NCBI RefSeq assembly: GCF_024449025.1
Contig: NZ_JAHLKM010000011.1
Span: 1-64,000, forward strand
DNA length: 64,000 nt
DNA from: Natronomonas aquatica
GTDB taxonomy: Archaea > Halobacteriota > Halobacteria > Halobacteriales > Haloarculaceae
Direction of reading: 5' to 3'
In this document: piece after piece, positions 3,893 to 16,255 of the stretch
Layout: each line of letters opens with the position of its first letter
How positions within the stretch are numbered: position 1 is the stretch's first letter
The notes under the pieces: model-generated
What the model was told of the DNA's origin: nothing
What the model saw: only the letters and a program-made list of their open reading frames with translations
Databases searched by the model: none
Program-made: the position numbers and the translations under genes

Positions 3893-4954
3893 ATGTCGGC
3901 GTCGACGCGGGTAAAACACCAGGTGGCGGTGTACGGCGCCGTCGCCGGAGCTGTGCTCGTCGTCCTCGGGATCGCGGCGATCGCGGCGGGGGGATACGTG
4001 TACACGAACCCGCCGACCGAGGAGATCCCGCCCCAGGAGACCGACGTCCAGGAGTTCTCGGCGTCGATCGATCACAGCGCCGAGGTCGTCGAGACGACGC
4101 CGCTGTACGAATCCGGAACGACGGTCGAAAACCAGCCGGTCTATTTCACCAACGCGACGCCGGATCTCCGGATCGTAGCGACGGCGAACGTGCCGGACGA
4201 CCGGCCGGTGAACGTCTCCCACGAGCTGACACTCTATCGGGAGATCACCTTCCAGGAGACCGTCTTCTGGGACGAACAGGAGATGCTGGCCGCCGACCGG
4301 ACGGTCGTCGAGGACGGCCAACTGCGCATCGAGGCCGAACTCGACGTTCGCTCCGTCGCGGCCCGGAACGCCGAGATCGACGGCGTCCTCGCCGACGTCG
4401 GTTCGGTGACGACCGGCATCCGGCTGCGGACGACCTACGAGACCGAAAGCACCGACGGCGAACCCTACGAGGGTGAACTGACCACCGGCAGCCAGATTCA
4501 GATCACGGACCGGGCGTACTGGTTCCAGAGCGACTTCGGTGCCAGCGCGACCGAGAGCCAGACGACGGCGGGGTCGGTCCGCGAGCAGCCGCCGAACTTC
4601 ACGCTCGTCGGCGCTCTCGGGGGACTCGGAATCCTGCTCGTACTCGGCGGGATCGGTCTCGCCTACTGGAGTTCCCGGACGGCGGACGTCCGGGACCTCG
4701 AAGAGCAGGTCTACCGCGCACGGTACGACGAGTGGATCTCGGAGGGCGATTTCCCGACCGACGCCGGCAAGCAATACGTCTACATCAACTCGCTGGAGGA
4801 CCTCGTCGACATCGCGATCGACACCGGCAAGCGCGTGATACACGATCCGGAACTCGAGGTCTACGGCGTCGTCGACGAGGATATCGTCTACTACCACGCG
4901 AGCGATCCGACGACGGTCGACTCGTGGGTGAACTTCAGCCGCGGGGAGTCCTAA
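3893..4954 (+). CDS. DUF5305-type membrane protein
   Basis: A 353-residue protein with one N-terminal membrane segment (about residues 10-34), an extracytoplasmic beta-rich domain of about 200 residues, a second membrane segment (about 236-262) and a cytoplasmic tail of 90 residues ending in an acidic, tyrosine-rich domain. This layout fits DUF5305, a haloarchaeal family often encoded beside signal peptidases, as here, where the two genes converge 25 bp apart. The start chosen is ATG 3893, just before the membrane segment; a TATA-like TTTTAT at about 3819 suggests a 40-nt leader. Function is unknown; a role in processing or surface assembly with the peptidase is inferred from position only. 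Confidence 0.75.
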   Translation: MSASTRVKHQVAVYGAVAGAVLVVLGIAAIAAGGYVYTNPPTEEIPPQETDVQEFSASIDHSAEVVETTPLYESGTTVENQPVYFTNATPDLRIVATANVPDDRPVNVSHELTLYREITFQETVFWDEQEMLAADRTVVEDGQLRIEAELDVRSVAARNAEIDGVLADVGSVTTGIRLRTTYETESTDGEPYEGELTTGSQIQITDRAYWFQSDFGASATESQTTAGSVREQPPNFTLVGALGGLGILLVLGGIGLAYWSSRTADVRDLEEQVYRARYDEWISEGDFPTDAGKQYVYINSLEDLVDIAIDTGKRVIHDPELEVYGVVDEDIVYYHASDPTTVDSWVNFSRGES

Positions 4955-4979
4955 TTTCCGGCTGACGGCAGGCGTCCGG

Positions 4980-6143
4980 TCACCGCAGCCAGCGTCGTAG
5001 TTTGACTCGCATCGGTATCGAACGGCGGTCCTGGCTGATCCGGATCGGGTCGAACCCGACCAGGAGGACCGCGATCAAAACGAACAGCGTCCCGATCACG
5101 AGGTTGATCGCGACGAGCGGGGCGACCGGGTGGACGGCATGGAGCGTGAGGATCGTCCCGGTCGGGAGGACCGCGAGATACCGGTACTCGTGGATCGTCC
5201 GCGTGTACGCGCCGGTCTCGGGCGGCGCTTCGATCGAGATCGTGACGTTCTCGGTCGTCCCGCCGGCGACGTACCGCTCTTGGGGTGTCACCGAGATTCC
5301 CGGGCTCGTCGGTTCGATGACCGTCACGACCGGGAGCGGCCCGTTGCTCGGGACCCGGTAGGTCACGTTCTCGGTCGTCCCCTGCTGGATGACGCTCGGG
5401 CCGGCCGCGTCCGATTGGGAACTCACGAACTGGAACTGCTGGGGCCCGGCCGGGACGAGCATGCTCGCGGTGAGCAACAGCACGAGCGCGACGCCCATGA
5501 CGGCGATGACGGTGATCGGGCTCAGCATTTCGATCCGCCGGCTCCGCTTTCTGGACCGGTCCCGCCGGCCCGAGTTCTCGGCGACGCTCGCCAGCAGGTA
5601 GGTGACCGTCCCGAACCCAAGGAGGATGTACGCGAGCCCCTGGGTTCCGAGCAGGGCGCGCGTCCCGAGGATCCCGGCGAGCGTCTGCTGGAGCGATCCG
5701 ACGGCCGCCCCGATCCCCATCACGACCACGCCGATCCCCGGGATGACGACGATGCTGTCGCCGATCTGGAGGGCCTTCGCCCTGATCTGGCCCTCCTGAA
5801 CCGGCGGCTCGCTGCCGTCCTGGTCCGTGACGGGGTTGGCGTCGCCTTTGGTGATATACCCCGACTCGGTCTCCTCGACGACCCGGTGGGTGACGAGTCC
5901 ACCGTCGTTGAGATTGACCGCATCGAAGACGACGACGTCGCCCGGCTCGACGGGGCCGGCGACGACCGGCGGGACCGCGACGAACCCGTCCCCCGGCTGT
6001 AGCTGTGGCTCCATGCTCCCGGTTTCGACGAAGCTGATCCCCATCGGGACGCCCAGCAGGCCGCCGACGATCGTCACCAAAAGAAAGAACCCCACGACGG
6101 CGGCGAACAGCCGCCACACAACCGAGAGGGGTGTCGGCGCCAT
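4980..6143 (-). CDS. Signal peptidase I, archaeal/ER (Sec11) type, with extra C-terminal domain
   Basis: A 387-residue type I signal peptidase. Residues 10-32 form the membrane anchor; Ser43 (TGSMEP), His86 (VTHRV) and Asp101 (KGDANP) give the Ser-His-Asp set of the Sec11/SipW type rather than the bacterial Ser-Lys dyad. After the catalytic core (to about residue 135) come further membrane segments and a beta-rich CARDB/TasA-like domain (about 225-340), then a final membrane helix. Housekeeping archaeal signal peptidases lack this 200-residue extension. It probably removes signal peptides from a dedicated set of surface proteins; the TasA/DUF1102-like genes at 10-12.2 kb are the obvious nearby candidates. 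Confidence 0.88.
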   Translation of the reverse strand: MAPTPLSVVWRLFAAVVGFFLLVTIVGGLLGVPMGISFVETGSMEPQLQPGDGFVAVPPVVAGPVEPGDVVVFDAVNLNDGGLVTHRVVEETESGYITKGDANPVTDQDGSEPPVQEGQIRAKALQIGDSIVVIPGIGVVVMGIGAAVGSLQQTLAGILGTRALLGTQGLAYILLGFGTVTYLLASVAENSGRRDRSRKRSRRIEMLSPITVIAVMGVALVLLLTASMLVPAGPQQFQFVSSQSDAAGPSVIQQGTTENVTYRVPSNGPLPVVTVIEPTSPGISVTPQERYVAGGTTENVTISIEAPPETGAYTRTIHEYRYLAVLPTGTILTLHAVHPVAPLVAINLVIGTLFVLIAVLLVGFDPIRISQDRRSIPMRVKLRRWLR

Positions 6144-6403
6144 CGCTATCGACCACCGGCCGGCCGGGAGCGTGAGTCGGGAGCGATCGGTACCATTGAC
6201 GCATATCGGACGGTCTGTTCCGCCCGTCTCCGTTCGTATCGAAGGTGATACGGAGAAAAAAGGCTGTCCCCGTGCCGATCGACCCGGAGACGTGACCGGG
6301 GTAGAGACCGACAGCGGTGATTCTCTCGGTCGATTTTACCACAAGGTTTACTACTATACCACGAGTAGTTGTCACGAAAGTGGACTCGTGAGACTGTCCC
6401 AAC

Positions 6404-7474
6404 ATGACGAACGATACACCGACCGACGACCGGGCCGGCGTTGATTCGGCGTCCTTCGAGGAGTGGCTGGAGCAGGCCGCCGAATCCAAGGGTGTTCCCA
6501 AGCAGGAACTGATGAACCAGATGCTGTCGTCGTACTGGATCCTCGATGAACTGACCGGCCTCGTCGGGGAAGCCGAGCTCCAGTCCGGCATCGACCGCCA
6601 GTCGAAGGGCCCCGCCGACCCGCAGTCCGGGTCCGAAACCGGCGTACAGGCCCGCGATACCGGCGGAAACAACCAGAACATTCCGACCCAATCGCCCGAC
6701 AGCGCTCCCACGGAGGGATCCGACGGTACCTCCACCGAAGAGAGCATCCACGAGATCCAGTCGGCCATTCAGCAACTCCTCGAGGCCCAGTCGGCGGAAG
6801 AAGAATCGCCGGGAACCGCCCCGACGCTCGACGGCGGCGTCGTCAGCGTCGTCTCCGAACTCCAGCGACAGGTCGGCAGTTTCGAATCGAAGATCGACGA
6901 CATAGAGGACCGCCAGAGCTCGCAGTTCGACAGGCTCTCGAACGAATTCCAGTTGCTCATCGATCGCGTCGACGAACTCGAACGGCAGCGGGACCGGTTC
7001 GTCGAGCGGACGGAACTCGAACCCCTGTCCGACGACATCCGGGATCTGAACGACCGACTCGACGACCTCCGGGCGGAGAACGAAGACCTGCGGGCGGCCA
7101 ACGAAGACCTCGAATCGCGCGTCGACCGGGAGTTCGACAACATCGAGGATCTCTTCCGCCGGCTCCTGAACGCCATCGACGACCTCGATGCGGAACTGGA
7201 TACGGCGACCGAGTCCGTCCGGGACGACCTCGAGCCGATCGAAAGACGGGAGGCCGAGCGAAAGCAACTCGCGGACCTCAAGACCCAGGCGCTGAGCCGC
7301 GAGATCCGGCGCGGGTCCTGTGAGAGCTGTGGCCAGCGCATCGATCTGGCGCTGCTCGAATCCCCCGAGTGTCCGAACTGTACGGCCCGCTTCGTCGGGG
7401 TCCGTGACGGCGGCTGGAACCCGTTCCGGTCGCCGACGATCGAAGCGGAACGCCCGCCGATCGACGGCTCGTAA
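6404..7474 (+). CDS. Coiled-coil protein with C-terminal zinc ribbon
   Basis: A 356-residue acidic protein. A short helical N-terminal module (residues 14-55, FEEWLEQAAES and the LSSYWILDEL segment) is followed by a low-complexity acidic stretch, then about 150 residues of heptad-rich coiled coil (roughly 145-300), and a Cys4 zinc ribbon (Cys306, Cys309, Cys323, Cys326). Nothing identifies a catalytic function. A rod with a terminal zinc ribbon suggests a scaffold or adaptor. The next gene starts about 100 bp downstream on the same strand, so the two may be co-transcribed. A TTTACTACTAT element near 6348 is a plausible TATA box. Confidence 0.7.
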   Translation: MTNDTPTDDRAGVDSASFEEWLEQAAESKGVPKQELMNQMLSSYWILDELTGLVGEAELQSGIDRQSKGPADPQSGSETGVQARDTGGNNQNIPTQSPDSAPTEGSDGTSTEESIHEIQSAIQQLLEAQSAEEESPGTAPTLDGGVVSVVSELQRQVGSFESKIDDIEDRQSSQFDRLSNEFQLLIDRVDELERQRDRFVERTELEPLSDDIRDLNDRLDDLRAENEDLRAANEDLESRVDREFDNIEDLFRRLLNAIDDLDAELDTATESVRDDLEPIERREAERKQLADLKTQALSREIRRGSCESCGQRIDLALLESPECPNCTARFVGVRDGGWNPFRSPTIEAERPPIDGS

Positions 7475-7577
7475 CCGGACGTCCGTACTCAGGCCCTACA
7501 GACAGCATGCATCTCCAATTGCCTTCGACTGTATTGCCCCGATATCCCAGCCTCCCACACGTTCGATCTCGTCCCGT

Positions 7578-9155
7578 ATGACCGGCACCGACGGCGATCC
7601 GGACGAAAACACGTCGGGAACCGACGGCGGAACGCGATCGGAACGATCCTCCGGGGACGCGTCCGGGTCCCGCTTTGGGGAGTTCTTGGATCGGCTCGAG
7701 GAGCGTGAAGCCGAACGAAAGCGTTCCGAGGCTGAATCGGACTCCGACGCGGCCGACAGTACGTCCGGAGTCGACTCGTCCGAGCCCCCCGGTGGATCCG
7801 CCGAAACGGAGCCCGAAACCGACCCCGACGGCTGGATGTGGGGATCCCCGAAGGGGAACTCCGAGGGGGATCCGGACGGGGACGCGGCCTCCGAAAGCGA
7901 CGCCCCATCCGACAGGGCCGAACGCATAGAGCCCGAGGAAGCCCCAGCCGGGGGCTCGGACTCCGATACCGACCGGCTCTGGAACACCGATATCGATCCG
8001 ATCGACGGGGACGAGGACGGAAACGAAGACGAGGATGGGGACGGAAACGAAGACCATGGCGATGACGGTGAGGAAAGTGAAATACGGGACGATCCTTCGG
8101 TCCGCCGATCCGACGCCGAGGACTTTACCCAGGAGCCACCGTCCTCGACGGAGACAGAGACGGAGACGGAGACGGAGACGGAACCGGAACCGGAGACGGA
8201 GACGGAACCAGAACCGGAGACGGAGACGGAGACGGAACCGGAACTTGAGCGTGAGCGTGAGGAGCCGAACGCGTCGGGGAGGAGAGATGGCGATGAGGAC
8301 GCCGAACCGACGGATTCAGACCGGTGGTCAGAACTCGGTGCACGTCTCGGAACCGAGGACGTCGAATCCGATCAGGACAGGCGCTCCGGCACCGACGCGT
8401 CGGTCGGATCGGCGGACGCTACGGACTCCTCGCAGGACCGCCGGAGGACCGAGGGCAGCGAGTCGTGGGATGACCGAGACACGACGGTCGAGGTCCCCGG
8501 AGTCGATCGAACGTCCTCGGGCGGGACCGGAACGCCGACCGCGGCCGGGGTCCACGAGACGGAACTCGACCGCGTGACCTCGATCCCGAGTGTCCTCGTC
8601 CTCGGCCCGACCGGAACGTCCGTTTCGGACGCTATCTGCTCGCGGTTTCTGACCGGCGAGGAGGGGAGCCGGGACGTCCTCTTTGTGACCTTCGAGGAGC
8701 CGCCGGACGACCGGATAGACGTCTGTCACCGGGCCGACGAGTGGGCGGGCGGCGAGATCGGGATCATCGAAGTCGGCCGCGGGAGACGGAACGCCGCCAC
8801 TTCCGAGATTACCGGCGGGGGAACCGTCGGATCGATCACCGTCAGACACGTCTCCAACCCCGGCGACCTCTCGAAACTCGGGATCGTGATCACCCAGTTA
8901 CTCTCGAAGTTCGACGGGACGCCCCGGCAGACGGTGCTTTGTTTCCACACCCTTTCGGCGCTGCACAGCCAGATCGGGACCAAGACGCTGTTTCGGTTCC
9001 TGAACACCCTCCAGGGGCGGCTCCGGTCGTCGGACGCCCTCGGACACTACCATATGGATCCGGACCTCCACGACGAGATCGTCATCGAGACGCTGCGGCC
9101 GATCTTCGATTCGGTCGTCCGGTACTCAGAGGACGGCGAACTGGAACTCGAGTGA
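7578..9155 (+). CDS. Acidic disordered protein with degenerate RecA/KaiC-like domain (DUF7504-like)
   Basis: A 525-residue protein starting at ATG 7578. Residues 1-330 are almost entirely Asp/Glu/Ser/Thr/Pro and predicted disordered, including a Thr-Glu/Pro-Glu repeat (about 191-222). From about residue 333 a folded domain of 190 residues resembles the KaiC/RecA-like haloarchaeal family: it has LVLGPTG at the P-loop position, but no Lys-Ser/Thr follows, so ATP binding by a normal Walker A is unlikely. The strand order LFVTFEE, IGIIEVG and TVLCFHTLSAL fits the fold. Such proteins often accompany haloarchaeal sensory genes. The role is unknown; partnership with the upstream coiled-coil protein is inferred from adjacency. 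Confidence 0.65.
   Translation: MTGTDGDPDENTSGTDGGTRSERSSGDASGSRFGEFLDRLEEREAERKRSEAESDSDAADSTSGVDSSEPPGGSAETEPETDPDGWMWGSPKGNSEGDPDGDAASESDAPSDRAERIEPEEAPAGGSDSDTDRLWNTDIDPIDGDEDGNEDEDGDGNEDHGDDGEESEIRDDPSVRRSDAEDFTQEPPSSTETETETETETEPEPETETEPEPETETETEPELEREREEPNASGRRDGDEDAEPTDSDRWSELGARLGTEDVESDQDRRSGTDASVGSADATDSSQDRRRTEGSESWDDRDTTVEVPGVDRTSSGGTGTPTAAGVHETELDRVTSIPSVLVLGPTGTSVSDAICSRFLTGEEGSRDVLFVTFEEPPDDRIDVCHRADEWAGGEIGIIEVGRGRRNAATSEITGGGTVGSITVRHVSNPGDLSKLGIVITQLLSKFDGTPRQTVLCFHTLSALHSQIGTKTLFRFLNTLQGRLRSSDALGHYHMDPDLHDEIVIETLRPIFDSVVRYSEDGELELE
8148..8250 (+). repeat. Hexanucleotide GAGACG/GAACCG tandem repeat
   Basis: About 100 bp of imperfect six-base repeats encode alternating Thr-Glu and Pro-Glu dipeptides in the disordered part of the RecA-like protein. 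Repeat-number changes would stay in frame, so the tract is a plausible length-polymorphic site. Confidence 0.8.
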
Positions 9156-9190
9156 CGAACAGCCCCGTCGGCTCCGGGGCCCCATTCCGG

Positions 9191-9793
9191 TCAGTCGGCG
9201 GTACTCTCGGCTCTGATCTCTGGCGGCGGCCCCTCGTCGCCGAGCCGCATCCGTCCCGCTTGAATCGTCTGCAGGACGGCCGAGATACCGAAAAGCAGCG
9301 TGATCACGCCGGCGATGGCAACTGTCGGGACGCTCTCGAGGACGCCGACCTCATAATAGGCCAACGCGACGAGCAGCCCGGAAACGATACTCAGGCCGAG
9401 ATAGAAGTAACTCCAGGGGACGTTCCGGCCGGCGACGACCTCCAGATAGATCTCCGCGTTCGCGATCGGGTCGGTCAACTCGACGATCCCCCGGTCGTCG
9501 TCGTAGGCGACGAGTCCTCGCTTTTCGAGCGTCGGGAGGTGTGACTGATACAGCGAAATGTAGACCCGCTTTCGTTCCTGGGAGTCCAGCTCCTCGATCG
9601 GTTTGTCGTTCTCCCAGGCGGCGACCTGCTCGGCGATCGTCGAGACGTCGACCGGTTCGCCGGTCTGTTTCAGATAGTGGATCGCGTATCGCCGTCGGCG
9701 GTTCGAGAGCACCTCGTAGACGTCTTCGGTCGAGAGATCGGCCGACGGTTCCCTCTCCGATCGTGATTCCGCGGAGGGATCGGAAGCAGTCAT
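9191..9793 (-). CDS. Winged-helix membrane protein (DUF7344-type regulator)
   Basis: A 200-residue protein with an N-terminal winged helix: the VYEVLSNRRRRYAIHYL segment (residues 25-41), a variable helix-turn-helix, and SHLPTLEKRGLVAYD, typical of the haloarchaeal DUF7344 family. Two hydrophobic helices follow (about residues 126-145 and 150-170), so the DNA-binding head is tethered to the membrane. It lies convergent with the RecA-like gene and 227 bp from the end of the beta-helix gene. It could regulate the surface genes to its right, but no operator was identified. A TTTTATAG element at about 9834 sits 40 bp upstream of the ATG. Confidence 0.78.
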   Translation of the reverse strand: MTASDPSAESRSEREPSADLSTEDVYEVLSNRRRRYAIHYLKQTGEPVDVSTIAEQVAAWENDKPIEELDSQERKRVYISLYQSHLPTLEKRGLVAYDDDRGIVELTDPIANAEIYLEVVAGRNVPWSYFYLGLSIVSGLLVALAYYEVGVLESVPTVAIAGVITLLFGISAVLQTIQAGRMRLGDEGPPPEIRAESTAD

Positions 9794-10020
9794 TTATATA
9801 TTTTTATCGTATCACTCCTTGAACCGACCAGTACTATAAAATGTCGTATTTATTTTTTCCTTCCACGCTGCCGGGCGACCGCTATCGGACGAACCATAGA
9901 TCGGCGCCGGGTCGGAAACGCTCCATTCATTTCGAACGTTTCGTTCTACCCTGGACCGTCTCCGCCGTGTCGACCGCCCGGAGGGGTGGAAGCCGTGTGA
10001 GTCCCCGTCTCCGGAGCAGT

Positions 10021-11304
10021 TCACTCGATCGTGTAGTCTTCGCAGGCCATGCCATCGATCGTGGCGCCCGACGAACAGATCAACTGGACCGAAGCCGGAT
10101 CGTCGGCTTGGGCCCCGCCTTTGATCTCTGAATTGGGCCCCATCTCGAGAGTTACGTCCTTGGTCAGGCTCACATCGCCGTCTACCTTGGCTTTCTCGCC
10201 CATCGTCAGCGAACCGCCGGTCGAGAGATCGCCCTTCACCTCGGCTTCCTTGCCGAGGTCGGTGTCGCCGCCGGTGGTAAGGCCACCCTCTATCTGGGCC
10301 TTCTCACCCAACGTCGCCGATCCGCCGGCGTCGGCGTCGCCTTTGATCTGGGCCTTCTCGGCCAGCGTCAGCGAGCCGCCGGCCGAGAGATCGCCTTTCA
10401 CTTCGGCTTCCTTGCCGAGTCCGACGCTGCCGCCGGAGCCGGCGTCGGCGTCGCCTTCGATCTGAGCCTTCTCGCCGATGTCGATCCCACCGCTGGCGTC
10501 GGCGTCGCCTTTGATCTGAGCCTTCTCTCCCATCGTCAGCGAGCCGCCGGTCGAGAGATCGCCCTTCAGTTGAGCCTCGGCACCTAGATCGATGTCCCCA
10601 CCAGCGTCGGCGTCGCCTTCGATCTGAGCTTTCTTTCCCATCTCGATCCCGCCGGCGGCGTTGGCGTCGCCTTTGATCTGGGCCTTCTCGCCGGCCTTGA
10701 TCCGGCTGCCAGCGTCGGTGTCGCCTTTGATTTCGCTCTCGTCGCCCATGATGACACAGCCTTCGACGTCGACGTCGCCTTTGACCTGAACTTTCGAACC
10801 GAGTTCGACGTTCTTGTCCGAATCGACGTCCCCGTCGACGTTCTCGTTGATGACGCGCGTGTCACCGCCGCACTGCCCGATCCCCGCGACGTTCGCGGTG
10901 CGCGTGAGAGTAACGCTACTGGAGCCCGACGACGCTTCAAGCTGGAATTCGACGGTGTCAGGACGCTGTAGCGGATCGACGTCAACGCTGAAGGTTTCGC
11001 TTCCACCCGCGGGGATGGTCTTCTGTGACTCCCGGAGTGACACCCCGGTATCCGTGTTCGACGTCAGCGAAACCGAGACAGTCAGTGTCCCCTCGAAGTT
11101 GTTCGAGACGGTCACCAGCCGGGAGCCCGACGTCGGCGTCACGGGGTCGGCGATATCCAGCCCGACGAGGGCGTTCTGATCGGAGGCGACGCCGACGTTC
11201 GAGGCCCGGTCCGCGTCGATGGTAGTGAACGCGCCGACGCCGGTAAACGCGGCTATCGAACCGCCGACCAGCATGACCACGGCCAGGATCTTTATCACGT
11301 TCAT
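10021..11304 (-). CDS. Secreted protein: TasA/DUF1102-like N-terminus fused to 13 bactofilin-like beta-helix repeats
   Basis: A 427-residue exported protein. Residues 1-26 form a hydrophobic signal, followed by GAFTTIDADR, the hallmark of DUF1102/SipW-dependent proteins, and a beta-sandwich-like region to about residue 140. From residue 158 to 395 there are thirteen repeats of 18 residues (two have 20), each beginning Gly-Asp and ending near an EKAQI(K/E) motif. This is the periodicity of bactofilin or polymer-forming right-handed beta-helices. Four cysteines (145, 183, 410, 421) flank or cap the helix. Bactofilins are normally cytoplasmic; export with a TasA-like head is unusual. It probably forms a rigid surface rod or polymer. 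It is divergent from the DUF1102 gene. Confidence 0.82.
   Translation of the reverse strand: MNVIKILAVVMLVGGSIAAFTGVGAFTTIDADRASNVGVASDQNALVGLDIADPVTPTSGSRLVTVSNNFEGTLTVSVSLTSNTDTGVSLRESQKTIPAGGSETFSVDVDPLQRPDTVEFQLEASSGSSSVTLTRTANVAGIGQCGGDTRVINENVDGDVDSDKNVELGSKVQVKGDVDVEGCVIMGDESEIKGDTDAGSRIKAGEKAQIKGDANAAGGIEMGKKAQIEGDADAGGDIDLGAEAQLKGDLSTGGSLTMGEKAQIKGDADASGGIDIGEKAQIEGDADAGSGGSVGLGKEAEVKGDLSAGGSLTLAEKAQIKGDADAGGSATLGEKAQIEGGLTTGGDTDLGKEAEVKGDLSTGGSLTMGEKAKVDGDVSLTKDVTLEMGPNSEIKGGAQADDPASVQLICSSGATIDGMACEDYTIE
10120..10833 (-). repeat. Tandem repeats encoding 13 beta-helix coils
   Basis: Thirteen in-frame units of 54 bp (two of 60 bp) encode the GD(A/V/L)xxGGxxxxGEKAQIK pattern. Units 6-8 and 9-11 are more similar to each other as triplets than single neighbouring units are, and unit 12 restarts the triplet, which points to expansion in blocks of three coils (about 165 bp). 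Confidence 0.88.
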
Positions 11305-11728
11305 CTTTGGACGGCAGGCGACGCCGGAAGTGTTTGCTTACCTAATCTACGTACTGTGGGCCTTTGTACCCCTCGGAACGTTTCATTCATTTCACCGGTA
11401 GAGTACCACGAGAAAGCCCCCTAACGCTGTTTCTCGGTCACATCATCGGCGCGATCCGCCGTCAAAACGGGTGAGGGAACGGCGACAGACAGCGATCGAC
11501 CCGTTTCGGGGGATCCCGAACGCTCCCGCCGAAAGCCCCGATAGAACGAGGGTTAATCCTGCCTAACCCGGTCTTCACCCGAAATTAGGCGGCCGTACCA
11601 CCCGGGTAGCCCATCCTAACGCTCCGGTAGGCCGGTCTTACAAAGAGGGTAGGGGTGTATGTACCAGGTAGAAGGTCGCCCGGTGCTCCGTTGGGGTGCC
11701 GGGTGACCGAGACACACGGTAATACACA
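11305..11728. promoter_or_regulatory. 424-bp divergent intergenic region between two TasA-like genes
   Basis: There is no credible coding here. The region separates the beta-helix gene (left) from the DUF1102 gene (right) and must hold both promoters. The right half has two related imperfect direct repeats, CTAACCCGGTCTT (about 11573-11585) and the GTAGGCCGGTCTTA segment (about 11627-11640), with a short ACCCGGGT palindrome between them. The length and repeats exceed what two basal archaeal promoters need, so regulated transcription or a 5' leader on the DUF1102 mRNA is likely. Confidence 0.45.
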
Positions 11729-12244
11729 ATGAGACCCAAAGGAAAACTACTCGCACTGGTGGTAATGTTCGCCGCGGTCGGGCTGATCACAGCCACGGGC
11801 GCGTTTACGACTGTTGAAGCGGAACGGACGGCGACGGTTGACGTGGCCGGTGACTCCTCCGCGTTGCTTCAGATCGAGGCAGCAAACGATATCGACGAAG
11901 GAGCCGTTAGTAATGCAGGTAACGGAGCCGCGCAGATAGACCTGAATTCAGCCGGCCTTGGTGATGCTGCTGGACTTAATACCGAGGCAAACACAACATT
12001 GACACCGCTGGTCAACATCACGAACAATGGTCAAAACTCGGTCGAGGTTACTATTAGCGCCAGTACTGATGAAGGTAATGTGAATGATGTGATAGCAGTA
12101 GACGGCAGCTCGAACGGATTCACCCCGACATCAGTTGGTCCCGGAGATAGCGTTCAATTCGGATTGATCATGGATATCGGCGCCCTAAGTGATGGGGAAA
12201 ACTTCGATATAACAATCGATATCACCGCTGAGGACGATTCATAG
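11729..12244 (+). CDS. DUF1102 / TasA-like secreted protein (candidate filament subunit)
   Basis: A 171-residue secreted protein. A hydrophobic signal (residues 7-24) is followed by GAFTTVEAERT, matching the equivalent site of the divergent beta-helix protein, then an all-beta domain with VNITNNGQNSVEV and GPGDSVQFGL. DUF1102 proteins are related to TasA/camelysin and to archaeal bundling-pilus subunits, which are cut by SipW-type signal peptidases and polymerise by donor-strand exchange. That role is inferred here. Base composition is visibly lower in GC than neighbours, with many A/T third positions, suggesting transfer or relaxed codon selection. The next surface gene starts 74 bp downstream. 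Confidence 0.75.
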   Translation: MRPKGKLLALVVMFAAVGLITATGAFTTVEAERTATVDVAGDSSALLQIEAANDIDEGAVSNAGNGAAQIDLNSAGLGDAAGLNTEANTTLTPLVNITNNGQNSVEVTISASTDEGNVNDVIAVDGSSNGFTPTSVGPGDSVQFGLIMDIGALSDGENFDITIDITAEDDS

Positions 12245-12318
12245 TATAATCAGTTATTGGCGGAGTTTGTTCCCCGTTAAAATAGGAGATAAACAACCCT
12301 AAATAAAACCCCGATAGC

Positions 12319-14691
12319 ATGAACCTCCGCACAGCCCCCACAATTCTCACCGTCGCCGTCGTCTTCGTCCTTCTCGTCCCGACGGTCGCGATCTTCGGGA
12401 CGATGGGGTCGCCGACGGACGGCCTCTTCGACGGCGAGCCGTCGGTGGAGATGCAGGCCCACGACGGCCCCAACGGTGAGTACGTGGCGGCTGCGGAGGA
12501 CGGCCAGCTCGAGATCGACTTTTCCGATCCCGGCTTGAACAGCGAGGCCTTCACGGGCGTCGAGCGCGTGTTCGATTTAATCAACACCGACACGACGAAC
12601 GTGACGGTGTGGGTGACCCACGACGGCGACGACCAGGTGACGCTGTACGAGGACGCCACCGGAGCGCCCTTGGAGAGCGAGGATTCGGGAGTCGTTCTCT
12701 CGCCGGGGGAGACTGTCACGGTGAGCATCGACGTCGACAGCACGGACGCGGTGGCGGGCGATCAGCTGCTCTCGACGGTGACGCTACACGCCAACTACGA
12801 CGCCGCGGTACCCGATTTCGGCGTCGAAATCGACGACATCCCCGAGAGCGTTTCGGAGGGCGAGACGGTGACCGCCGAAACGACCGTCACGAACGACGGC
12901 GAGGCGGGCGGCGAGACGACCGTCGAGTTCCTCGTCGACGGCGAGGTGGTCGACAGCCGGACCCTCTCGCTCGAACCGGGCGAGAGTCAGGCGGTCGAAT
13001 TCGAGTATACTGCCGGCGGCGATGACGCCACCGTTTCGATCCGGACTGGCGACAGTTCGATCGAACGCACGGTATCGGTTGTCACCTCCGGCGGTGGCTC
13101 CGGTGGTGGCGGTGGCGGGAGCGGGGGCGGAACAGATGCATCCGAAACGGGGGACGGGGAAGAGGAAACGGAAGGGGAAGGGGAAGGGGAAGACACCCAG
13201 GAAGACACGGCACCGGAAGAGACCGCCACGGACGAAGACGCGGGCGTCGAAGTCGAGTTCGAAGGAGACGAAACGGAGGAGACTGAAGGAGACACCTCCG
13301 AGGACGACAGCGGGGACGATCAGCCTTCGATGACCGTCCGCGAGATGGACGCTTCGGAACTCGACTCCGAAGATACCGACCGGCCGCCACAGGCGGTCAT
13401 CAATTCCGAGACGGGGGGAACGAGTGAAGGAGCGGACGCCGAGGCGTTCGATACGATGACGCTCGTCGACGAGCCGACTGAACTCTCCAGCGAGCGCTCG
13501 ACGATCGGCTCGGCGGAGGCGGTGACCTCCCGCGATCGGATCTCACGGATCGTCGACATTCAGGTCCCGTCGGACCGAGCAAACCGGCCCGGGACCGTCC
13601 GGATGCGCGTCGACCGCGACCGGCTCGGCGACGTCGACGGTGAGTCGACGATGATCGGCCATCGGACCGAGGATGGAGGCTGGGAGCTACTCGAGACCCG
13701 CGTCGTCGATCAGACCGAGGAGTCCATCGTCGTCGAAGCGCGCACACCTGGCTTCTCGCCGTTCGCGGTGTTCAGTCCGCCGAGCGTCACCTACGAGTGG
13801 ACGCTACCGAATGGGACGGTACTGGAAGGCCAACGGATCGACCCCACGTTCGAGGAGCCCGGTTTCTACGACGTCCAGTTGACCGTCACTGATGCTCTCG
13901 GTCGCCAGAGCACGACGACTCACCGGATATTGGCAAACGACGTTCCAGAGGCGACCGTCGAGGTCGTCGACCGCGAGGGCGATGAGGTCACGCTCGCCGC
14001 GAACGTCACCGACGAGTTCGGCGAGACGGAGGTGACCTGGACGTTCCCCGACGGAACCGAAAAGACCGGCGAGGAAATCACCCACACGCTTGAGGAGGGC
14101 GAACACGAAATCAGCCTTCACGTCGTCGACGAGTACGGCGCCGAATCCGAAAGCGAACACACCGTCGCCGTCGGCCCACCCGGCGCAGCGGCACGGATGG
14201 AGACCGATGCGGTCGCTGACGCTCTGGGGATGGACCTGGGAGTGATCGTCCAGTTGGGACTCCTCTCAACGATCGGGCTGGCGCTGGCCGTCGGCTACCG
14301 GCGGTTCCCCTGGGGGATGTTCGCACCGAACCGTCGCCGTGGACCGGAGATCACGGTCGATGGATCCCCCGACGTCGACGCCGACGCCGGGCGGATCACG
14401 CTCGAGGAGTTCGCCGTCGAGAACGCGACCGAACTCGATACCGTCCGTATCGAGATCACCGACGACAGTGACCGGAACTTGATCCGAAAGCGGCTCGATC
14501 TATCGGGAATGACAAGCTACACCACCTCTCGGGAGACGGTCACCGTCCCACCCGGTATCGATATCGATCCCGAAGAAAGCTACACGATCCGCATCAAGGC
14601 GACCGACGCCGGGGGCCACAGCGCCGAACGGGACCTGTCGGGGATCGCCGCCGATGCGGACGACGGATCCGGTGCGAACTCGGTCGAATAA
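12319..14691 (+). CDS. Large cell-surface protein with CARDB, PGF-pre-PGF and PKD domains
   Basis: A 790-residue surface protein. Order: signal peptide (1-28), a DUF1102-like beta domain (about 40-155), a CARDB/Ig-like domain (165-255), a Gly-then-Glu-rich linker (256-345), a PGF-pre-PGF-like domain (404-488, ending TPGFSPFAVF), two PKD-like domains (490-535 and 540-620), one membrane helix (641-663) and a cytoplasmic-side domain of about 125 residues containing another beta fold. The long acidic linker would span the S-layer. It lies directly after the DUF1102 gene and is likely co-expressed, making it a candidate anchor or scaffold for the filament. Confidence 0.8.
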   Translation: MNLRTAPTILTVAVVFVLLVPTVAIFGTMGSPTDGLFDGEPSVEMQAHDGPNGEYVAAAEDGQLEIDFSDPGLNSEAFTGVERVFDLINTDTTNVTVWVTHDGDDQVTLYEDATGAPLESEDSGVVLSPGETVTVSIDVDSTDAVAGDQLLSTVTLHANYDAAVPDFGVEIDDIPESVSEGETVTAETTVTNDGEAGGETTVEFLVDGEVVDSRTLSLEPGESQAVEFEYTAGGDDATVSIRTGDSSIERTVSVVTSGGGSGGGGGGSGGGTDASETGDGEEETEGEGEGEDTQEDTAPEETATDEDAGVEVEFEGDETEETEGDTSEDDSGDDQPSMTVREMDASELDSEDTDRPPQAVINSETGGTSEGADAEAFDTMTLVDEPTELSSERSTIGSAEAVTSRDRISRIVDIQVPSDRANRPGTVRMRVDRDRLGDVDGESTMIGHRTEDGGWELLETRVVDQTEESIVVEARTPGFSPFAVFSPPSVTYEWTLPNGTVLEGQRIDPTFEEPGFYDVQLTVTDALGRQSTTTHRILANDVPEATVEVVDREGDEVTLAANVTDEFGETEVTWTFPDGTEKTGEEITHTLEEGEHEISLHVVDEYGAESESEHTVAVGPPGAAARMETDAVADALGMDLGVIVQLGLLSTIGLALAVGYRRFPWGMFAPNRRRGPEITVDGSPDVDADAGRITLEEFAVENATELDTVRIEITDDSDRNLIRKRLDLSGMTSYTTSRETVTVPPGIDIDPEESYTIRIKATDAGGHSAERDLSGIAADADDGSGANSVE

Positions 14692-14827: not shown

Positions 14828-16255
14828 ATGGGAGTGACAACCGACCCCGCCCGCGTCCTCTACGTCGACGACGACCCGTCCTTCACGGAGATGCTCTCGA
14901 CGGTCCTCGAACGCGAGACGGACTGTCTCGTTATCGAAACCGCTCGCGACGCCGAAACCGGTCTCGAGACCGTCCGCGAGGAACCGATCGACTGTGTCGT
15001 CTCCGATTACTCGATGCCGGGAACCGACGGGCTAGAGTTCTTGCATTCGGTCCGCGAGGAGGACGACGAGCTCCCGTTTCTGCTTTTGACGGGACGCGGA
15101 AACGAGGAAATCGCGAGCGAGGCGATCTCTGCGGGCGTGACGGATTACATCCAGAAACAGGGCGGGACCGATCACTACTCGCTTCTCGCCAACCGGATCA
15201 CGAACGCCGTCGAGCAGTACCGGGCGGGACAGAAACTCGAACGCCGAAACGAGGAGCTCGAACGGGTGAAAAACCGGTTCCAGTCCTTTCTCAAACACTC
15301 TCCGGACGTGATCACCGCGATCGACGGGGAGGGCCGGATCCAGTACCACAGCCCGGCGATCGAACGCGTCCTCGGGTACGACCAAGAGGAGCTGGTCGGG
15401 ACGAAAGTGGTCGATCACGTCCATCCCGACGACAGAGAGCGCGTGTCCGAGGGGTTTTTCAGCCTCGTCGAGGAGGGCGAGGGAACGGTAACCCAAGAGT
15501 ACAGAGTCGAGCACGCCGACGGCTCGTGGGTCTGGCTCGAGTCGGTCACCAGCGCCGACGAGGAGTTCCGCGACGGCGGGTACGTGATCAACTCCCGGGA
15601 GATCACCGAACGGAAGCGCCGGGAGCGCGAGCTCGAACAGAAGACCGAGCGACTCGAGGAGTTCGCTAGCATCGTCAGCCACGACCTCCAGACGCCGATC
15701 ACGGTCGCCGACGCCAGACTCGAGATGGCGATGGCCGAGTGCGACAGCGAACACCTCCCGCCGATCGGCGACGCGTTGACCCGGATGGACGAGATCATCG
15801 ACGCTACCCTGACGCTCGCCCGGGAGGGGCGGGTCGTCGACGAAACGGAGCCGGTCGATCTCGACGCCGTCGCCGATCACTGCTTCCGGACAGTGACGCC
15901 CGAGCAGGCGACGGTTCGTGCCACCACGGGGCTGTCGCTCGAGGCCGACCCCGAACGGCTCCGGCACGTCCTCGAGAACCTCTTTGCCAACGCCGTCGAG
16001 CACGCCGGCGAGGACGTGACCGTCCGGGTCGAGGATCTGCCGAACGGCTTCTATGTGGCCGACGACGGCCCCGGAATCCCCGAAGACGAGCGGGAGAAGG
16101 TGTTCGAACCGGGCTACTCGAAGACCGACTCCGGGACCGGCTTCGGGCTCGCGATCGTCGAGGAGATCGTCGAGGCCCACGGCTGGACGATCGATGCGAC
16201 CGAAAGCGACGCCGGCGGTGCCCGCTTCGAGATCTCCGGCGTCGAGACAGTTTGA
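14828..16255 (+). CDS. Receiver-PAS-histidine kinase
   Basis: A 475-residue soluble signalling protein. An intact N-terminal receiver has the acidic triplet Asp14-16, phosphoacceptor Asp60, Thr88 and Lys110. A PAS domain spans about 145-262. The HisKA helix carries His285 in SHDLQTP, and a HATPase domain shows the N box (NLFANAVEH), G1 box (ADDGPGIP) and G2 box (GTGFGLAIV). There is no membrane segment. It probably receives phosphate from another kinase, or is a phosphorelay input, with a PAS-bound signal. Output is unknown, as no DNA-binding domain is present. It follows the surface locus by 136 bp with its own promoter. Confidence 0.9.
   Translation: MGVTTDPARVLYVDDDPSFTEMLSTVLERETDCLVIETARDAETGLETVREEPIDCVVSDYSMPGTDGLEFLHSVREEDDELPFLLLTGRGNEEIASEAISAGVTDYIQKQGGTDHYSLLANRITNAVEQYRAGQKLERRNEELERVKNRFQSFLKHSPDVITAIDGEGRIQYHSPAIERVLGYDQEELVGTKVVDHVHPDDRERVSEGFFSLVEEGEGTVTQEYRVEHADGSWVWLESVTSADEEFRDGGYVINSREITERKRRERELEQKTERLEEFASIVSHDLQTPITVADARLEMAMAECDSEHLPPIGDALTRMDEIIDATLTLAREGRVVDETEPVDLDAVADHCFRTVTPEQATVRATTGLSLEADPERLRHVLENLFANAVEHAGEDVTVRVEDLPNGFYVADDGPGIPEDEREKVFEPGYSKTDSGTGFGLAIVEEIVEAHGWTIDATESDAGGARFEISGVETV

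Follow-up and report, generated by a model that had tools for sequence, protein, structure and literature searches.

A divergent Tafi-type fimbria locus of Natronomonas aquatica with a beta-helix protein in the place of TafC

Do the genes between positions 3893 and 14691 of a Natronomonas aquatica contig form a dedicated system for the export and assembly of surface fibres, and what part does an exported beta-helix protein play in it? The question stems from an original prediction, made from the letters alone, which read the interval as an export and surface assembly locus related to TasA and to archaeal bundling pili. The window is the whole stretch of 64,000 nucleotides that was analysed (contig NZ_JAHLKM010000011.1, positions 1 to 64,000), and the genome searched alongside it is a draft of 3.2 Mb in 82 contigs from the Haloarculaceae. 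The interval is a divergent locus for Tafi-type, that is TasA-like, fimbriae, in which a beta-helix protein replaces TafC. The idea of a specialised filament system is borne out as far as the fimbria locus goes, but the filament type itself is already known: the pilus of Natrinema has been solved (9p0a, 2025), and NCBI holds families for TafA, TafC, TafE and TafF (NCBIfam, June 2026; NF052520-NF052523). Our comparison with Tafi draws on this structure, its PDB title and the NCBIfam family names. Family-profile searches and reading of the sequence place eight genes in the interval, listed here with two domains of the beta-helix protein:

3893-4954, plus strand: DUF5305 membrane protein (PF17231, 2.2e-41; two membrane segments; start taken from alignment A7)
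4980-6143, minus strand: Sec11/SipW-type signal peptidase with a C-terminal extracytoplasmic domain (TIGR02228, 60.6 bits, cut-off 51.85)
6404-7474, plus strand: cytosolic coiled-coil protein with a C-terminal zinc ribbon (from the sequence)
7575-9155, plus strand: DUF7504 protein (PF24336, 5.3e-33; start set by comparison with locus L071)
9191-9793, minus strand: DUF7344 winged-helix protein with two C-terminal membrane segments (PF24035, 8.4e-32; hydropathy)
10021-11304, minus strand: TafC-like exported subunit, 427 amino acids (TafC model over the N-domain; PF04519; AlphaFold2)
10888-11166, minus strand: Ig-like beta-sandwich of the TafC-like protein, residues 47-139 (AlphaFold2)
10075-10860, minus strand: beta-helix of the TafC-like protein, residues 149-410 (AlphaFold2; periodicity; DNA repeats)
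11729-12244, plus strand: TafE-like exported fimbrial subunit, 171 amino acids (TafE model; fold matches)
12319-14691, plus strand: TafF-like CARDB/PKD surface protein, 790 amino acids (profile A4; CARDB and two PKD domains; membrane segment)

The genes that had been named originally (DUF5305, the peptidase with its extra domain, DUF7344, two exported proteins and the CARDB/PKD protein) lie where they had been placed. The genes at 6404-7474 and 7575-9155 on the plus strand had been left out of that inventory, and the CARDB/PKD protein is itself a third member of the subunit family, of the TafF-like kind.

The first part of the answer comes from the conservation of this neighbourhood in relatives. 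Across 116 Haloarculaceae genomes, in which the peptidase, DUF5305 and the small exported protein were each searched separately, 107 peptidase genes were found at an E-value of about 1e-50 or better, and 98 of them have DUF5305 within 12 kb, where chance would give about 0.9%; matches to the small exported, TafE-like protein lie equally close to a peptidase in 96 of 140 cases. A second sample consists of the 80 best-ranking named loci that surround related peptidases; 60 of these loci have full flanks (hereafter full-length), and their genes were called by a simple composition rule; they cover many haloarchaeal genera, including Halorubrum, Haloarcula, Natrinema, Halobacterium, Haloquadratum, Halopenitus and Natronomonas. 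Because these loci were picked by peptidase similarity, their figures describe the clade of the window's peptidase, while the test in 116 genomes is independent of that selection. Full-length loci almost always carry TasA-like proteins (59/60), TafF-like proteins (58/60) and DUF5305 (57/60), and the DUF7344 winged-helix gene is found at 50. The canonical order of the Haloarcula-type locus L052 is DUF5305, TafF, TafE, TafA, DUF7344, TafC and peptidase, and all four of its Taf proteins exceed the NCBIfam cut-offs. The window likewise has its subunit genes beside a Sec11-type peptidase, DUF5305 and DUF7344. The linkage of peptidase, DUF5305 and subunits is real and goes beyond chance, and homologues are not scattered in relatives apart from one split described below.

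The subunits themselves carry the second part. Both exported proteins share the motif GAFTT-x2-A-x-R (GAFTTIDADR and GAFTTVEAER), as had been noticed originally; at related loci, 142/280 TasA-like proteins and 0/1479 neighbouring proteins carry the more general form GAFx4AxR. The accompanying DUF1102 label did not hold, since PF06510 matches neither protein in Pfam at an E-value of 0.1. A twin arginine is present in 145/171 motif-bearing relatives and absent from the window's proteins, whose clade has Sec-type signals in its place. As a side observation, the TasA-like proteins of loci L045-L150 mostly have twin-arginine signals, though their completion by strand exchange is presumed.

The 171-residue protein matches the NCBIfam TafE model at 3.5e-13 (49.7 bits), and a profile built from it and 27 relatives matches the Tafi pilus of Natrinema sp. 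J7-2 (9p0a) at 8.8e-37. The same structure ranks first for its AlphaFold2 model by both Foldseek, where it is the sole match below 1e-3, and VIA-align (Z 8.4 over 125 residues, 3.5 A), followed by the Pyrobaculum bundling pilus (7ueg, Z 8.3) and, lower, the Sulfolobus thread (7pnb, Z 6.5). A Z near 8 is moderate; yet 9p0a and 7ueg score higher than the unrelated Ig-like structures, in agreement with the match by sequence, so that the protein appears to have the Tafi pilin fold, with moderate confidence in the model. It is the sole stand-alone TasA-like pilin that a profile search found in the genome, and all three TasA-like proteins found in this way sit in this locus. The third is the TafF-like protein, whose match to NCBIfam TafF is weak (1e-3, 18.3 bits) but in which profile A4 detects a TasA-like N-domain at 12451-12801 (51.4 bits), followed by CARDB, two PKD domains and a C-terminal membrane segment. 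This protein is likely to be the membrane anchor of the fimbria.

The beta-helix protein combines two families. The TafC model covers its N-domain only (8.2e-10, 38.3 bits), and the bactofilin family PF04519 is matched well above its gathering score (60.8 bits against 27.9). Its AlphaFold2 model (mean pLDDT 89) joins an Ig-like beta-sandwich at residues 47-139 to one end of a beta-helix at 149-410, mostly predicted at 94-98, with 14 rungs and a period of exactly 18 residues that is mirrored in tandem DNA repeats of 54 and 162 bp. The number of rungs differs among orthologues while the period stays constant. Cysteine pairs (145/183 and 410/421) flank the ends of the helix; both are kept in Halopenitus, and on the Haloarcula marismortui plasmid pNG200 the first pair is kept. 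They fit an oxidised extracellular module and tend to argue against open stacking ends. With a signal peptide and a fimbrial N-domain, the protein is of the exported type, unlike the non-exported cytoskeletal bactofilins. Its Ig-like domain matches PapD/FimC/MSP-type folds (Z 9 to 10) and, with residues 21-40 unstructured, looks complete even in the absence of the N-terminal strand; bactofilin structures and the Tafi pilin are absent among the 50 matches listed for the model, which is not evidence against either. No relative of the protein was found in viral contigs.

What stands at the C-terminus of such proteins varies between relatives. In L052, TafC consists of the N-domain and a lectin-type Laminin_G_3 domain. 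Halopenitus persicus and H. malekzadehii (L072 and L073) have full-length beta-helix orthologues with 49% identity and more rungs, adjoining the peptidase and DUF5305. On pNG200, a shorter beta-helix version of 314 residues follows directly after TafA, TafE and TafF, all of which exceed their cut-offs (214.5/190, 191.6/155 and 559.7/420 bits), and from this position we conclude that it replaces TafC there; the stretch has neither peptidase nor DUF5305, both of which the chromosome supplies. Bactofilin-type C-domains also occur on Taf-type N-domain proteins of L051, L145, L164 and L174. Two Halopenitus-type proteins (L168:938-2086 and L072:7517-8986) are near-identical over their first 50 or so residues and differ in the C-terminal repeat module. 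The TafC-like N-domain is thus retained in relatives, whereas the C-terminal module and the number of rungs differ, a case of module swapping. The complete fusion has few close relatives: a strict class-wide search gave matches in 11 of 391 genomes, of which four are near full length.

Some further arrangements were seen beside these. The pNG200 stretch (L003:5046-8849) is a mobile cassette of fimbrial subunits, and the chromosomal locus has a different TafC-type protein. In L173:1022-2686 (G041:C7), the same 18-residue beta-helix with a terminal cysteine cap sits on a weakly DUF7289-like, pilin-like N-terminus; as this fusion has no Taf N-domain, the module seems to travel between surface proteins. 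A DUF1102 domain (Pfam match) fused to the right-handed beta-helix PF13229 in Halorientalis salina (L108:8299-9858), at a locus of the same kind, is a further module type. Non-exported bactofilin-like genes lie near the peptidase locus at L136:6490-7650, L127:15635-16738 and L078:14227-15267, which may be coincidence.

The export and membrane components form a constant core. The window's peptidase passes the TIGR02228 cut-off for Sec11/archaeal signal peptidase I, and its Ser43 and His86 are invariant in the alignment of relatives. Its C-terminal extracytoplasmic domain sits between membrane segments, its best solved relative is human SEC11A, and it stays below the SipW equivalog cut-off (NF046067, 31.3 bits against 190). 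It would mature the fimbrial subunits. DUF5305 consists of a transmembrane segment, an extracytoplasmic beta-rich domain, a second transmembrane segment and a conserved cytosolic domain; compared by sequence with solved structures, neither this protein nor the extra domain of the peptidase gave a meaningful match, and a role of the latter as a strand-capping chaperone is conjectural. From conserved position, our guess is that DUF5305 is a candidate component of the assembly platform and that the DUF7344 protein is likely a regulator. The coiled-coil/zinc-ribbon gene is present at 5/80 named loci, all among the peptidases nearest to the window's, and the DUF7504 gene at 6/80, adjoining the former in five. 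The two (window 6404-9155; L071, L075, L077, L080, L089) occur as a pair only where the peptidase is nearest to the window's, and we regard them as an accessory pair of this locus subtype, with roles guessed in the same way. For the histidine kinase at 14828-16255 no sign of conservation with the locus was seen, and no formal test of that was made; we do not count it among the parts.

How might these parts work together? The explanation that we consider probable is a Tafi-type fimbria of strand-exchanging subunits with a TafC-like terminal subunit that carries an exchangeable beta-helix module. The subunits would cross the membrane through Sec, and the Sec11/SipW-type peptidase would cut them immediately ahead of the Phe in GAFTT. 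By donor-strand exchange, the N-terminal strand set free in one subunit could then complete the fold of its neighbour; the N-terminal segment is unstructured in the monomer models of both the TafE-like and the TafC-like protein, which is compatible with such an exchange and is not proof of it. The TafE-like protein would be the repeating or adapter subunit, the TafF-like CARDB/PKD protein would tie the fibre to the membrane, and the peptidase and DUF5305 would act as a membrane station, with DUF7344 as regulator. Because its own Ig-like domain is predicted to be complete without the N-terminal strand, the TafC-like protein would donate a strand, accept none and thereby end the fibre. At this presumed tip, the beta-helix may serve as a rigid and exchangeable module for adhesion or spacing that replaces the lectin-type domain of TafC.

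Several results weigh against this explanation. All Taf cut-offs are missed in the window (155 bits for TafE, 420 for TafF and 410 for TafC), and no TafA-like protein is present in the genome, the best score in the window being 16 bits against a cut-off of 190; a complete rod cannot be taken for granted, and the rod would have to consist of the TafE-like protein, or the structure would be short. The model of the TafE-like protein is of modest confidence (pLDDT 69.5), with its donor segment unstructured as a monomer. The N-domain of the TafC-like protein is nearer to PapD/MSP-type folds than to the TasA jelly roll. The linkage is strong and not absolute: three Halopenitus-type genomes have TafE and TafF about 70 kb away from the genes for the peptidase and the TafC-like protein. 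This split, together with the coiled-coil and DUF7504 genes that most loci do not conserve, would fit a general signal peptidase that merely happened to neighbour unrelated genes for surface proteins; such a coincidence is hardly credible in view of the co-location counts given above and of pNG200, which carries four subunits as one block.

The missing TafA, and the name 'fimbrial adapter' that NCBIfam gives to TafE, also suit a short non-filamentous surface complex, in which the TafE-like protein acts as a bridge between the TafF-like anchor and the beta-helix protein and the helix is displayed near the S-layer. We consider this unlikely, because the TafE-like protein shares its pilin fold and N-terminal motif with filament-forming relatives and because one or two small subunits are likewise encoded elsewhere in this peptidase clade. 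Could the beta-helix protein instead polymerise outside the cell, as the original prediction had it, into a second filament or coat beside or in place of the TafE-like fibre? Bactofilins polymerise through the helix core (PMC12364344), and both the PF04519 match and the long regular helix at high model confidence agree with such a role. The helix is indeed real and exported; however, it belongs to a TafC-like subunit as its C-terminal module, with an Ig-like domain on one end and conserved cysteine pairs at both, which tends to argue against end-to-end polymerisation; its rung number varies freely, and relatives hold lectin-type or other modules at the same position. We therefore think a bactofilin-like polymer quite improbable and read the beta-helix as an exchangeable end or adhesive module rather than as a second polymer. 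More speculative still is the thought that exported helices self-associate and, by stacking, join fimbriae of neighbouring cells or fibres at their tips, with cassettes on plasmids such as pNG200 as the means by which the module is gained and exchanged; should this prove true, a polymer fold of the cell skeleton would have been reused as an extracellular connector.

Altogether, the Tafi fimbria emerges as a standard surface system of haloarchaea, with a fixed core of Sec11-type peptidase, DUF5305 and DUF7344 and an exchangeable subunit. DUF5305 and DUF7344 thereby gain a role that can be tested, and a family of swappable extracellular modules is defined, the bactofilin-like helix among them, which may decide what a cell sticks to.

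The dedicated TasA- and bundling-pilus-like locus that was first proposed is thus supported by neighbourhood, NCBIfam Taf models and fold, and its closest counterpart is the Tafi pilus of Natrinema sp. J7-2 with the NCBIfam Taf proteins. They have in common the pilin fold, the N-terminal motif, the subunit types and the TafC N-domain, and as at other Taf loci the subunits are linked with a Sec11-type peptidase, DUF5305 and DUF7344. The window differs in its distance from the Taf cut-offs and its lack of TafA, in the bactofilin-like beta-helix that stands where TafC has Laminin_G_3, in Sec-type rather than twin-arginine signals and in the inserted coiled-coil/zinc-ribbon and DUF7504 genes. The Pyrobaculum bundling pilus and the Sulfolobus thread are alike in fold at very low sequence identity. 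In Bacillus, TasA assembles by donor-strand exchange and is encoded in one operon with the peptidase SipW (PMC9674648); the TasA/TapA/SipW system and the window both place exported beta-sandwich subunits beside a dedicated archaeal-type signal peptidase, but the window adds DUF5305, DUF7344 and a TafF-like anchor to what is described for the tapA-sipW-tasA operon, and its peptidase misses the SipW cut-off. With bactofilins and the halofilins of haloarchaea, finally, the TafC-like protein shares a beta-helix of 18-residue period matched by PF04519, and it is set apart from them by its signal peptide, its fimbrial N-domain, the cysteine pairs at the helix ends and its approximately 14 rungs.

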